The notes beneath the pieces were generated by a model. That model did no database searches. It had not been told where the DNA came from and saw only the letters and a program-made list of their open reading frames with translations. DNA of 40,440 nt from Tannerella sp. GTDB lineage: Bacteria > Bacteroidota > Bacteroidia > Bacteroidales > Tannerellaceae. Positions 16,338 to 35,510 of this stretch are shown here, piece by piece. The translations under genes were made by a program, and so were the position numbers. The stretch's first letter is position 1; every line of letters starts with the position of its first letter. The DNA lies in contig JAITVS010000398.1 of assembly GCA_031285685.1 (NCBI GenBank), positions 1 through 40,440 on the forward strand. Direction: 5' to 3'.

Positions 16338-17240
16338 CTAAAACAATTTGTTCGGGTATTCTCCGGCATCAATAAGCGCCTGTATTTTATTGACAACACC
16401 CTGACGGTCGTCTGCATACGTTACACCAAACCATTTGGACGTTGTGTCGAGTACTTTTACACGTGCTATATTTTTTGTAACGAGTTCATTAACCATTAAT
16501 GGGATGAAATATTCACTTTTGAGATTGTCCATGTTTTCACGTAAGAATTCTTTGAAATATTCTTCGGAATATCCGAAATAATCAGGTGTGAATCCCCACA
16601 TGTTCATAGATACGGGAACATTCTCATTTAAAACAACCTTTTTTCCGTTTTCATCGGTAAATTGTATTTCTCCGTCAATACGTTCTATAGCCGTACGTTC
16701 TACAACCGTTGTCAGGTAGCCTTCCGCGTTTGTTTCACAAACGCCGCGTGCTACGGAACCACTTTCGCTTAACGTATTTCCTACACGGAAACCAACCATG
16801 CAGTATTCGTTTTTCTTACCTACAGTCTTTGTCAACTCTTCTCCCAGTACGGCAAAACTGTCACGTCCGTAGAAATCATCTGCATTAATGACGGCAAAAG
16901 GTTCGTTAATGACATCCTTACCCATAAGAACGGCATGGTTTGTTCCCCATGGTTTTGTTCGTTCTTCAGGACATTTAAATCCTTCCGGGAGTTTATCTAA
17001 TGACTGGAATGTGATTTCAACAGGGATGTGATTCTCATATTTACTTAAAATCTTAGAACGAAAATCTTCCTCAAAATCTTTACGTATAACAAATACAACT
17101 TTCCCGAATCCGCCACGGATCGCATCAAAAATAGAGTAATCCATAATCGTTTCGCCGTTAGGACCCAGTCCGTCAAGCTGTTTTAATCCTCCATAGCGAC
17201 TTCCCATACCGGCTGCAAGGACAAATAATGTTGGTTTCAT
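16338..17240 (-). CDS. Sugar-nucleotidyltransferase-like protein (NTP_transferase fold)
   Basis: The 300-residue protein opens with PTLFVLAAGMGSRYGGLKQL, the Gly-rich nucleotide-binding loop of NTP transferases, with the activating Arg and a Lys close by. PNGETIMDYSIFDA and the INADDFYG motif (the metal-binding Asp) follow. Length and motifs resemble glucose-1-phosphate thymidylyl/uridylyl-type enzymes without the extra C-terminal hexapeptide domain. It would join a nucleoside triphosphate to a phosphorylated sugar or similar alcohol, but neither substrate can be named. There is no sugar-pathway neighbour to help. It ends with a TAG stop. The gene diverges from the DUF5686 gene. Confidence 0.85.
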   Translation of the reverse strand: MKPTLFVLAAGMGSRYGGLKQLDGLGPNGETIMDYSIFDAIRGGFGKVVFVIRKDFEEDFRSKILSKYENHIPVEITFQSLDKLPEGFKCPEERTKPWGTNHAVLMGKDVINEPFAVINADDFYGRDSFAVLGEELTKTVGKKNEYCMVGFRVGNTLSESGSVARGVCETNAEGYLTTVVERTAIERIDGEIQFTDENGKKVVLNENVPVSMNMWGFTPDYFGYSEEYFKEFLRENMDNLKSEYFIPLMVNELVTKNIARVKVLDTTSKWFGVTYADDRQGVVNKIQALIDAGEYPNKLF

Positions 17241-30602: not shown

Positions 30603-33600
30603 ATGGAACCATTTATACACTTACATGTACATACGCAGTTTTCGTTGCTTGACGGGCAGGCGCCTATTGATGCACTGATAGAAAAAGCTCAGTATGACGG
30701 GATGAAAGCGCTCGCTGTAACCGATCATGGGAATATGTTCGGCACAAAAGAATTTTTTAATAAAGTCTAGAAAAAGAACAGCAAGCATTTAGGAATCGTA
30801 AAGGATTGCGAAAAAGAACTGCAGCAGTTACTCGGAAAGGCAAATCCGACGGAAGAGGAAGATGAAAGGATAAAAAAACTGTCCAGGAAAATACATGAAG
30901 AAAAAGAACATCTGTTTAAACCGATCATTGGTTGCGAATGTTACTGCGCGCGCAACGGAAGACATAGCAAAGCCGGAAAGGAAGATCTTAGCGGTTGGCA
31001 TATTCTTCTTCTTGCAAAAACGTTGAAAGGTTATAAAAACCTGATAAAAATGGTTTCATCTTCCTGGACGGAAGGCTTTTACGGCCGTCCGCGTATTGAT
31101 AAGGAATTACTTGAAGAATATCATGAAGATATTATAGCCTGTTCTGCTTGTCTGGCCGGAGAGGTGCCGCGTTATATTCAGAACGGTGATATGCGGAAAG
31201 CTGAAGAATCGGTTCTGTGGTTTAAAAATTTGTTTGGGGATGATTATTATCTGGAACTTCAACGCCATGAAACGCATGATCCGGATGCGGCACAGGATGT
31301 TTATCCGCGGCAGGTTGAAGTGAATAAGGCGCTTATCGAAATAGCCCGTAAGCATAATATTAAACTGATAGCGACGAACGATGTTCATTTTGTGAATGAA
31401 AAAGATGCGGCTGCGCATGAGATCTTACTTTGCCTTAGTACGAACAAAACGATCAATGATCCGAACCGTATGCGTTACAGTCGTCAGGAATGGCTGAAGA
31501 CAACAGCGGAAATGAATGCCATATTCTCCGATATCCCGGAAGCTCTTGGTAATACGCTTGAAATTGCGGATAAGGTAGAATTTTATGACATAGACTCCCC
31601 AGCGCTGATGCCTTTTTTTGAGATAGATGCTTCATTCGGAACGGAAGATGAATATCGTGAGAAGTATGAAGAGAAAGATCTTATGGCTGAATTCGGTGAG
31701 AAAAATTATCTCCGGCTTGGCGGATATGAAAAGGCGATACGGATAAAACTGGAAGCTGACTATCTGGCGCATCTTACTCATGAAAAAGCCCATGATCGTT
31801 ATGGCGACAATTTGTCTGATGAAATAAAAGAGCGTATTGAGTTTGAACTTAATACAATGAAAACAATGGGTTTTCCTGGATACTTCCTGATTGTTCAGGA
31901 TTTTATCTCGGCTGCGAGGGAAATGGGAGTTGCGGTTGGTCCGGGGCGAGGTTCCGCTGCGGGATCGGTGGTCGCTTACTGTCTGGGAATAACGGATATT
32001 GACCCGATAGCATATGATTTGCTGTTTGAGCGTTTTCTGAATCCCGACCGTATATCGATGCCTGATATTGATATTGATTTTGACGACGACGGGCGGGGTG
32101 ATGTATTGAAATGGGTCACGGATAAGTACGGATATAGCCGTGTGGCACATATCATAACTTATGGTACGATGGCGTCAAAAATGGCAATAAAGGATGTTGC
32201 CCGTGTATTGGAGTTGCCGCTATCGGAATCAAATCGGCTGGCAAAGCTGGTTCCGGATCGTATGCCCGAGATTGACGGCCAGTCCGTGAAACTGAATCTT
32301 GCCAATTGCCTGAAGTATCTGCCGGAATTCAAGGCGGAATTGGGAGGGGGGAATCCTCTGATAAAAAAGACGCTGGAGTTTGCGTGCCAGTTGGAAGGAA
32401 CTGTTCGTAACACAGGTGTTCATGCCTGTGGTATTATCATCGGACGTCAGGATATTTCCGATATTGTACCTGTTTCGACCGCCGATGATAAAGAAACCGG
32501 GGAGACGCTTCTTGTGACACAATACGAGGGCTCTGTTATTGAAGATACGGGACTTATTAAAATGGACTTTCTCGGTCTTAAAACGCTGTCTATCATTAAA
32601 GAAGCTATTGAAAATGTAAAGCAGACCACTGGTGTGGAGATAGATATAGACCATATTGATATAGAGGACGAGAAGACCTACCAGTTGTATTGCCAGGGAA
32701 AAACGACTGCTACATTCCAGTTTGAGTCCGCCGGTATGCAGAAATACCTGAAAGAATTACAGCCATCCAAGTTTGAGGATCTGATTGCGATGAATGCTTT
32801 ATATCGCCCGGGGCCGATGGATTATATCCCTTCGTTTATCGCACGTAAACACGGTCGTTCGGAAATTGCTTACGATATTCCTATTATGGAACGATATCTG
32901 AAAGATACGTACGGTATTACAGTTTATCAGGAGCAGGTCATGCTTCTGTCACGTCTGCTTGCCGGATTTACCCGCGGCGAGAGTGATACCCTGCGTAAGG
33001 CGATGGGTAAGAAGCAAAAAGACAAAATGGAAGAACTGAAGGAAAAATTTTTTACCGGAGGCGAATCAAACGGATATAAGCGTAAAACGCTTGAGAAAAT
33101 ATGGGGTGACTGGGAAAAATTTGCATCTTATGCATTCAATAAAAGTCATGCGACATGTTATTCGTGGGTAGCTTATCAGACGGCCTACCTGAAAGCTCAC
33201 TATCCTTCGGAATACATGGCTGCAGTGTTGAGTCGTAACCTGTCCAATATAAAGGAAATAACGAAGTCGATGGATGAGTGCCGGGCCATGGGGTTGCAGG
33301 TTCTCGGTCCTGATGTCAATGAGTCGCACCGAAAGTTCGGTGTGAATAAAAAAGGAGATATGCGTTTTGGACTTGCCGCGGTTAAGGGAGTAGGCGAGGG
33401 TGCTGTCCTGAATATCATAGATGAGCGTGAGAAAAACGGCCCGTATAAAGATATTTATGATTTTATAGAACGGATAAATCTTTCTGCGTGTAATAAAAAA
33501 GTGATTGAAAGCCTTGCTCTCTCCGGAGCTTTTGATAATCTCGGGGTACGCCGTGAGCCGTTTGTTATACCGAATGAAAAAGGTGAAACCTTTACGGAGA

Positions 33601-34370
33601 TCATATCACGTTATGGAACGAAATTTCAGATGGACAAACAAATGGCGACCAATTCTCTATTCGGAACGGATGATGCTGTTGATATTGCAAAGCCGGATGT
33701 GTTCAAATGTGAGGAATGGAGCGATCTGGAGCGCCTGAATAAAGAGAAGGAATTGATCGGCATCTATCTTTCCGCTCATCCGCTGGATGCATATCGCGTG
33801 ATTCTGACTTCCGTTTGTAATACCGGAATGGCTGAAATAAACGAACGTGAAGAATTGAGAAACAAGGAATTATTACTGGGAGGGATTGTTACCGGATTCC
33901 GCGAAGGGACAACCAAACGCGGTAGTCCATATGGAATCCTTACCGTGGAAGACTTTACCGGCAGTGGTGATATTCCTCTTTTTGGAAATGATTATATCAA
34001 CTATGGTAAGTTTGGCCGGTTGGGCATGTATCTGTTTATCAGAGCTGCGGTTGAACCTCGTAGTGCACATATCGGCACTCTTGATTTTAAGATCAAAATG
34101 ATAACTCTTCTGCAGGATGAGAAAGATAAATTGATTGAAAAATTGAGTATACTGTTGCCTGTTAGTGAATTAACTGCTGCACTGGTGGAAGAGTTTCGTA
34201 TTATCTTTAAAGATAACCGCGGAAAGACGACATTACATTTCGATATTGTGGATGATGAACAAAGAAATGTGTCTGTGAATATGTATTCAAAAACCCATGG
34301 AATTGAAGTCACTCAAAAACTTATAGATATGCTTGGCGATATGGAAAATGTTCATTATAGAATAAATTGA
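30603..34370 (+). CDS. dnaE: DNA polymerase III alpha subunit, interrupted by an in-frame TAG at codon 56
   Basis: Reading from ATG 30603, the frame gives 1,255 codons of replicative polymerase, with one TAG at 30768-30770. Before it is the PHP-domain start (PFIHLHVHTQFSLLDG, then AVTDHGNMFGTKEFFNKV); after it the same frame continues (KKNSKHLGIVKDCEKELQ) without any shift. Downstream motifs are intact: SACLAGEVPRYI, the catalytic GPGRGSAAGSVVAYCLGI and PDIDIDFDDDGRGDVLKW aspartates, NTGVHACGIIIG, the helix-hairpin-helix region and an OB-fold near residue 1010-1080 (LLLGGIVTGFREGTTKRGSP). A protein begun after the stop, for example TTG 31023 or ATG 31050, would lack most of the PHP domain. 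Trx follows 23 bases after the stop. Identity is secure; whether the gene is expressed whole is not. Confidence 0.88.
30768..30770 (+). other. In-frame amber codon within dnaE
   Basis: The bases read AAA GTC TAG AAA AAG, codons 54-58 of the dnaE frame. TAG is also the natural stop of the nucleotidyltransferase gene (16338-16340) and of the ECF sigma gene (35508-35510), so general reassignment of TAG is unlikely. Confidence 0.9.
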
Positions 34371-34908: not shown

Positions 34909-34928
34909 AAGTTATTGGTAGTTTGTAT

Positions 34929-35510
34929 ATGAAAAATATCAATATGAATAATATGACAAGTTTTGAGCAGCTTTATTTGTCATATTATCCGAAGTTGGTT
35001 CGTTTTTCCAAAGAATATGTTTTGTCGGAAGAAGATGCGGAAAATATAGTTCAGGATGTTTTTCTGATTTTCTGGGAGCAAAAAGAACAATTGCCTTATC
35101 TTCGGAATATACCCTCTTACCTGTTTAAGCTGACAAAGAATAAAAGTATTGATTTTCTGCGTCATAAGATGATAAGTGCAGAAAAACAGAAACAATTATA
35201 CGAATTACAAATGCATGAATTACAATACCGATTGTATGCTATGGAACAATTCGGGGAAAATGTTCTGTATGAAAAAGAATTAAATGCAATCATACATCAG
35301 GCCATACAATCACTTCCCCAAAAATGTCGGGAGATTTTTATTTTAAGCCGGTTTGACGAGTTAAGCCAACAGGAAATCGCCGATAAATACAGTATCTCCG
35401 TCAGTACGGTGAATAACCAGATAACCAAAGCCCTGAAGATATTAAAGGAACAATTGAAAGATATTTTAAAAGATTACTTGTATATCTTTATCTTTTTAGG
35501 GCTTCTGTAG
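34929..35510 (+). CDS. ECF-type RNA polymerase sigma-70 factor
   Basis: I start at ATG 34929 (193 residues); TTG 34923 and later ATGs are also in frame. Region 2 spans about residues 13-80: LYLSYYPKLVRFSKEYVLSE, then DAENIVQDVFLIFWE, the core-binding and -10 recognition part. Region 4 spans about 125-175: LPQKCREIFILSRFDELSQQ and EIADKYSISVSTVNNQITKA, a helix-turn-helix for the -35. There is no extra C-terminal domain. It belongs to the SusC-linked ECF group of Bacteroidetes and pairs with the FecR gene 96 bases downstream. It would direct transcription of the SusC-SusD locus when its anti-sigma releases it. It ends with TAG. Confidence 0.93.
   Translation: MKNINMNNMTSFEQLYLSYYPKLVRFSKEYVLSEEDAENIVQDVFLIFWEQKEQLPYLRNIPSYLFKLTKNKSIDFLRHKMISAEKQKQLYELQMHELQYRLYAMEQFGENVLYEKELNAIIHQAIQSLPQKCREIFILSRFDELSQQEIADKYSISVSTVNNQITKALKILKEQLKDILKDYLYIFIFLGLL

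Follow-up and report, generated by a model that had tools for sequence, protein, structure and literature searches.

In the crAss-like phages of Bacteroidetes, TAG is recoded with the use of a suppressor tRNA. Sporadic in-frame stops are widespread in bacteria; they are mostly short-lived and the affected genes have dN/dS below 1, according to the part of Belinky et al. 2021 (PMC7918605) used here, and as a guard against artefacts that study kept stops found in orthologs of at least two species. A homolog of the Pol III alpha subunit is found in every one of about 2000 bacterial genomes, as stated in the portion of PMC3919608 that we draw on.

The gene described here is a dnaE with a single in-frame TAG. 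It shares with the phages of the same phylum the presence of TAG inside a coding frame, but in the source genome TAG is one of three types of in-frame stop, a suppressor tRNA was not found among the candidates scored, release factor RF1 is intact and the stops replace unlike residues. With the sporadic stops as they appear in the same part of PMC7918605 it shares a lone and short-lived nonsense codon in a gene that is otherwise intact and constrained. The dnaE TAG, known from one draft genome, would fail the two-species filter. Compared with DnaE1-type Pol III alpha, as far as the consulted portion of PMC3919608 defines it, the gene has the whole-length family match and the PHP ligands of a normal DnaE1; it differs in a helical-hairpin insertion in the PHP domain, which is common to its relatives, and in the lone TAG.

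The window, i.e. the whole stretch of 40,440 nucleotides that was analyzed, is contig C231 of the source genome (G000; 5,577,185 bases in 423 contigs, 91.86% complete, 5.04% contamination). This is presumably a metagenome-assembled genome; Tannerella sp. MAGs like its nearest relatives come, we assume, from termite guts. Its closest relative, the sister genome G007, served as the reference for all sister comparisons. The features of the locus are as follows.

30603..34370, + strand: dnaE, encoding the replicative DnaE1-type DNA polymerase III alpha subunit, from ATG at 30603 to a terminal TGA with one in-frame TAG (translation and family match)
30603..30767, + strand: 55-codon N-terminal piece with the PHP metal ligands H8, H10, D17 and H42 (NCBIfam match; ligands from alignment to PDB 7pu7)
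30768..30770, + strand: in-frame TAG, dnaE codon 56 (translation); the sister codon is Lys, one base away by a transversion
30768..30917, + strand: helical-hairpin insertion of about 50 codons in the PHP domain, codons 56-105, with the TAG as its first codon; absent from Thermus DnaE
31023..34370, + strand: open frame from the first ATG, GTG or TTG past the TAG, which is TTG at codon 141; the first ATG is codon 150, at 31050

Translation of 30603-34370 gave 1,256 codons with a terminal TGA and one internal stop, the TAG at codon 56, and the alignment to 29 relatives spans this codon without a frameshift. The first-pass annotation had described a lone TAG in a frame that is open and free of frameshifts on both sides, and this description is borne out. 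The NCBIfam model for DNA polymerase III alpha, NF004226, takes both pieces: the 55-residue piece matches at model positions 5-56 and the 1,199-residue piece at 57-1133 of 1146. On its own, the C-terminal piece reaches 1194.7 bits, above the cut-off of 1002, and the full-length match places the gene among DnaE1-type Pol III alpha subunits. A chance open frame is ruled out, since frame, family match and codon-wise selection all run past the TAG. As had also been noted, TAG ends two other genes of the window, 16338-17240 on the - strand and 34923-35510 on the + strand (2 of the 29 window genes tabulated). No tRNA genes were found within the window.

We then compared the codon with its counterparts in relatives. 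We found the gene in 40 of the 41 genus genomes and in 119 of the 123 family genomes. A stop inside dnaE occurs only in the source genome, both among 43 matches from the 40 genus genomes, some of which end short of codon 56, and among the 150 family matches listed (118 of the 119 matching genomes), some of which miss this codon. In the 29 aligned relatives the column holds Lys in 24 (AAG in 18, AAA in 6), Arg in 3 and Gln in 2. The alignment that had been suggested for codon 56 thus yields a Lys/Arg/Gln column, with TAG unique to this genome among the relatives listed.

The TAG falls at a boundary within the PHP domain. When the sister protein is aligned with Thermus DnaE, residues 4-55 correspond to residues 7-60 and those from 106 onwards to 66 onwards; on NF004226 the two dnaE pieces abut at 56/57 after 43 residues are set aside. 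The hairpin insertion occurs at the same place in relatives. A model of the first 300 residues of the sister protein, computed from an 18-sequence alignment, is of moderate quality only (mean pLDDT 66, pTM 0.62); it contains helices at 48-77 and 84-101 and is confident over 61-100 (pLDDT 93-94). Codon 56 would thus lie inside a helix that leaves the PHP core. The interrupted gene retains all nine PHP ligand residues: H8, H10, D17, H42, E112, H133, C183, D260 and H262. Their correspondence was read off the alignment to PDB 7pu7, with the metal-ligand residue numbers that we take this structure to have. The ligand motif itself was taken from the accessible part of PMC12926913.

Next we analyzed the selection acting on the two sides of the TAG. 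Relative to the sister, dN/dS is 0.081 over codons 1-55, 0.046 over codons 57-140 and 0.043 over codons 141-1254. Codons that differ nonsynonymously and synonymously number 9 and 30 in codons 1-140, and 50 and 255 elsewhere (Fisher p 0.36). After polarisation of the changes, 35 synonymous and 13 nonsynonymous ones fall on the branch of the source genome, and 33 and 17 on that of the sister. Both flanks of the TAG are under strong purifying selection, and the compared parts of dnaE show no sign of decay or relaxed constraint in either dN/dS or codon differences.

The dnaE TAG is one of a sporadic class of in-frame stops in this genome. We counted 13 distinct sites including dnaE (TAG 7, TGA 5, TAA 1). 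Eight isolated stops were judged genuine in 1.72 Mb, that is 4.7 per Mb or about 26 genome-wide, from a non-random sample of contigs chosen from earlier match lists and by number; five more came from family searches. The named sites outside the SusC searches are the following.

L082:5294, TAG: SusD (homology scan, PF14322)
L121:2844, TAG: Mob_Pre (coding score and by eye; Pfam support for the first piece only)
L109:1238, TAG: gene without a name (coding score and by eye)
L084:2600, TGA: SPFH/SHOCT (coding score and by eye; in Pfam an SPFH piece followed by a SHOCT piece)
L133:814, TGA: GH32 (homology scan)
L111:1318, TAA: AbiEii (homology scan)
L184:14238, TGA: SusD (homology scan; SusD by eye from homologs)

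Without a coding-score filter the homology scan was swamped by antisense frames. Of the 19 candidates from the source genome listed in a later scan, 5 were accepted (dnaE, L082, L111, L133 and L184), and the other 14 were set aside as antisense, weak or non-coding, 10 of them by eye. Both L086 sites, L148 and L090 were set aside with a longer coding frame on the opposite strand. None of the 10 candidates listed from the last 40 stretches was accepted by eye; the L184 site in these stretches was found only by the homology scan. Among SusC matches (TIGR04056), 4 of the 56 scored carry one stop in the source genome (2 TAG, 2 TGA) and 0 of 56 in the sister, with 56 of 141 and 56 of 149 first-look candidates scored, respectively. 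The difference is not significant (Fisher p 0.12), and a genome-wide excess of stops over the sister was rejected. The SusD N-terminal domain (PF14322) has a stop in 2 of 70 matches, both TAG, one of them being the L082 gene. SusC or SusD genes with single in-frame stops lie on contigs C168, C390, C5, C406, C311 and C199 of the source genome, and C168 carries two, both TAG. In 387 kb of the sister genome, one apparently broken gene that resembles the start of isocitrate dehydrogenase was seen by eye (L161:9093).

Together, these results make it probable that the dnaE TAG is an error in the consensus of the draft, or else a nonsense allele that is rare or very young. The TAG would then be a single-base departure from a sense codon and not the way in which the living majority makes DnaE; the cells would carry, or would very recently have carried, a normal dnaE frame, and reads would be expected to carry a sense codon here in the majority of copies, if not in all. 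We hold this explanation best because none of the other 12 stops interrupts a clearly essential gene and no further copy of dnaE was found. In its favor are also the single base that separates the TAG from the sister codon, its uniqueness among the relatives listed, the selection on both flanks, the lack of a suppressor among the tRNA candidates scored, the intact RF1, the fragmented and incomplete state of the draft and its other lone stops of all three kinds. The first-pass annotation had offered four explanations; base error, widened to include a rare allele, is the one that fares best, while neither a suppressor tRNA nor a second dnaE was found in the incomplete bin and internal restart is disfavored by selection.

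Two features of the wider set of stops count against an error. Outside dnaE, the SPFH gene and one gene without a name, the stops fall in accessory or mobile genes (SusC/SusD, GH32, Mob_Pre, AbiEii); this bias fits real loss-of-function mutations, because pure errors should spread evenly. Furthermore, TAA is under-represented among the 13 stops. Random substitutions are expected to give TAA, TAG and TGA in proportions of.45,.33 and.21, and at most one TAA in 13 has a p of 0.0045 if all substitutions are equal and of 0.14 if only transitions occur; the shortage is nominally unlikely under equal substitutions, yet not under transitions alone. If the other 12 stops are real mutations, then the case for an error in dnaE is weaker. 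The density in the sample, with 85% coding assumed, predicts about 0.02 in-frame stops for a gene as long as dnaE. A stop in dnaE would be unlikely had this gene been named beforehand, but it was picked after its stop was seen, and it would not be surprising if one of about 26 random stops fell in an essential gene.

An unlikely alternative is a real and fixed TAG, with enough DnaE made by readthrough, either by near-cognate misreading or by a suppressor tRNA that the bin lacks. The position of codon 56 takes Lys, Arg or Gln, and as it would lie in a helix where a lineage-specific insertion begins, several residues might be tolerated there. The constraint on both sides of the TAG, the further TAG and TGA interruptions and the general prevalence of short-lived stops in bacteria all agree with such a view. 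The decoding machinery and the relatives speak against it. The Rfam tRNA model was applied to 150 of 242 candidates from this incomplete bin and gave 37 matches; none of the 36 read by ARAGORN, of which one is untypable, has a CUA anticodon, nor does the one read by eye, a partial tRNA at a contig end (L075) that ARAGORN did not call and that is Asp GTC. ARAGORN found 14 tRNA genes in the 1.72 Mb, none with CUA. A whole-genome pattern of CUA loop plus T arm matched 8 times, with one match inside a known tRNA that is Arg TCT; matches outside tRNA genes are at chance level, because the reversed control gave 18. The RF1 gene prfA scores above its cut-off and has no internal stop in either the source genome or the sister. 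Strong suppression would be costly, because TAG terminates 109 of 849 long ORFs in the 1.72 Mb. Finally, this genome stands alone among the relatives listed.

A reassignment of TAG to one amino acid was rejected. Homologs, where informative, have Lys (dnaE), Gly, Trp or an aromatic residue in place of the stop. At the two clear TAG columns the residues are unlike, namely Lys 25, Arg 3, Gln 2 and Asn 1 in dnaE and Phe 13, Tyr 11, Trp 4 and Leu 1 in the SusD gene on C168; the remaining five in-frame TAG sites have mixed columns or no homolog. With mixed stop types, an intact RF1 and TAG as an ordinary terminator, the earlier view that the code is not generally changed holds.

We consider it very unlikely that a fixed amber codon sits in the sole replicative polymerase, with the enzyme made by steady leaky termination, lone TAG and TGA (rarely TAA) codons tolerated elsewhere and readthrough setting the replication capacity. 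The literature surveyed on in-frame stops in MAGs, suppressor tRNAs of Bacteroidales and consensus errors names no tolerated amber in dnaE. If real, the codon would offer a rare chance to see in nature how far an essential gene withstands leaky termination. If it is an error it carries a caution, namely that lone stops in essential genes of drafts need read support before biology is built on them.

It is also quite improbable that the part of the genome absent from the bin, roughly 8%, holds an intact dnaE, with the window copy being a recent decaying duplicate or belonging to another binned strain. The completeness and contamination values leave room for this. In contrast, the bin, within its 91.86%, holds one dnaE and no second copy, none of the 40 matching genus genomes shows two full copies, and the compared parts of the gene show no relaxed constraint.

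Restart at TTG codon 141 or ATG codon 150 would give a polymerase without the first half of PHP, possibly a mutator. A 1,115-codon ORF does follow the TAG, and a DnaQ-like exonuclease is encoded elsewhere (L095:11836-12612, - strand; its NCBIfam matches are below cut-offs among the 25 listed). A restart is nevertheless highly improbable: codons 57-140, which it would drop, are as constrained as the rest and still selected as protein, a start at codon 141 loses six of the nine PHP metal ligands, all of which are present, and PHP is strictly conserved, with its integrity affecting Pol III stability and activity (PMC3666897, in the portion cited here). A mutator through loss of PHP was rejected, the dnaE branch of the source genome being no faster than that of the sister.

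Three minor observations were made. The DnaQ-like gene on L095 directly follows a gene that looks like dnaN by eye. A tRNA-like gene on contig C237 of the source genome (L076:103-179, - strand; 40.8 bits) could not be typed by ARAGORN, which gave the anticodon as 'ataa'; inspection by eye shows an anticodon loop of 8 bases, which would suit a frameshift-type tRNA or a decayed copy. Upstream of dnaE, TAATTTTG at 30588-30595 matches the Bacteroidetes -7 promoter motif, TAnnTTTG, and 7 bases separate its end from the ATG. Judged from this predicted position, the dnaE mRNA may be nearly leaderless.
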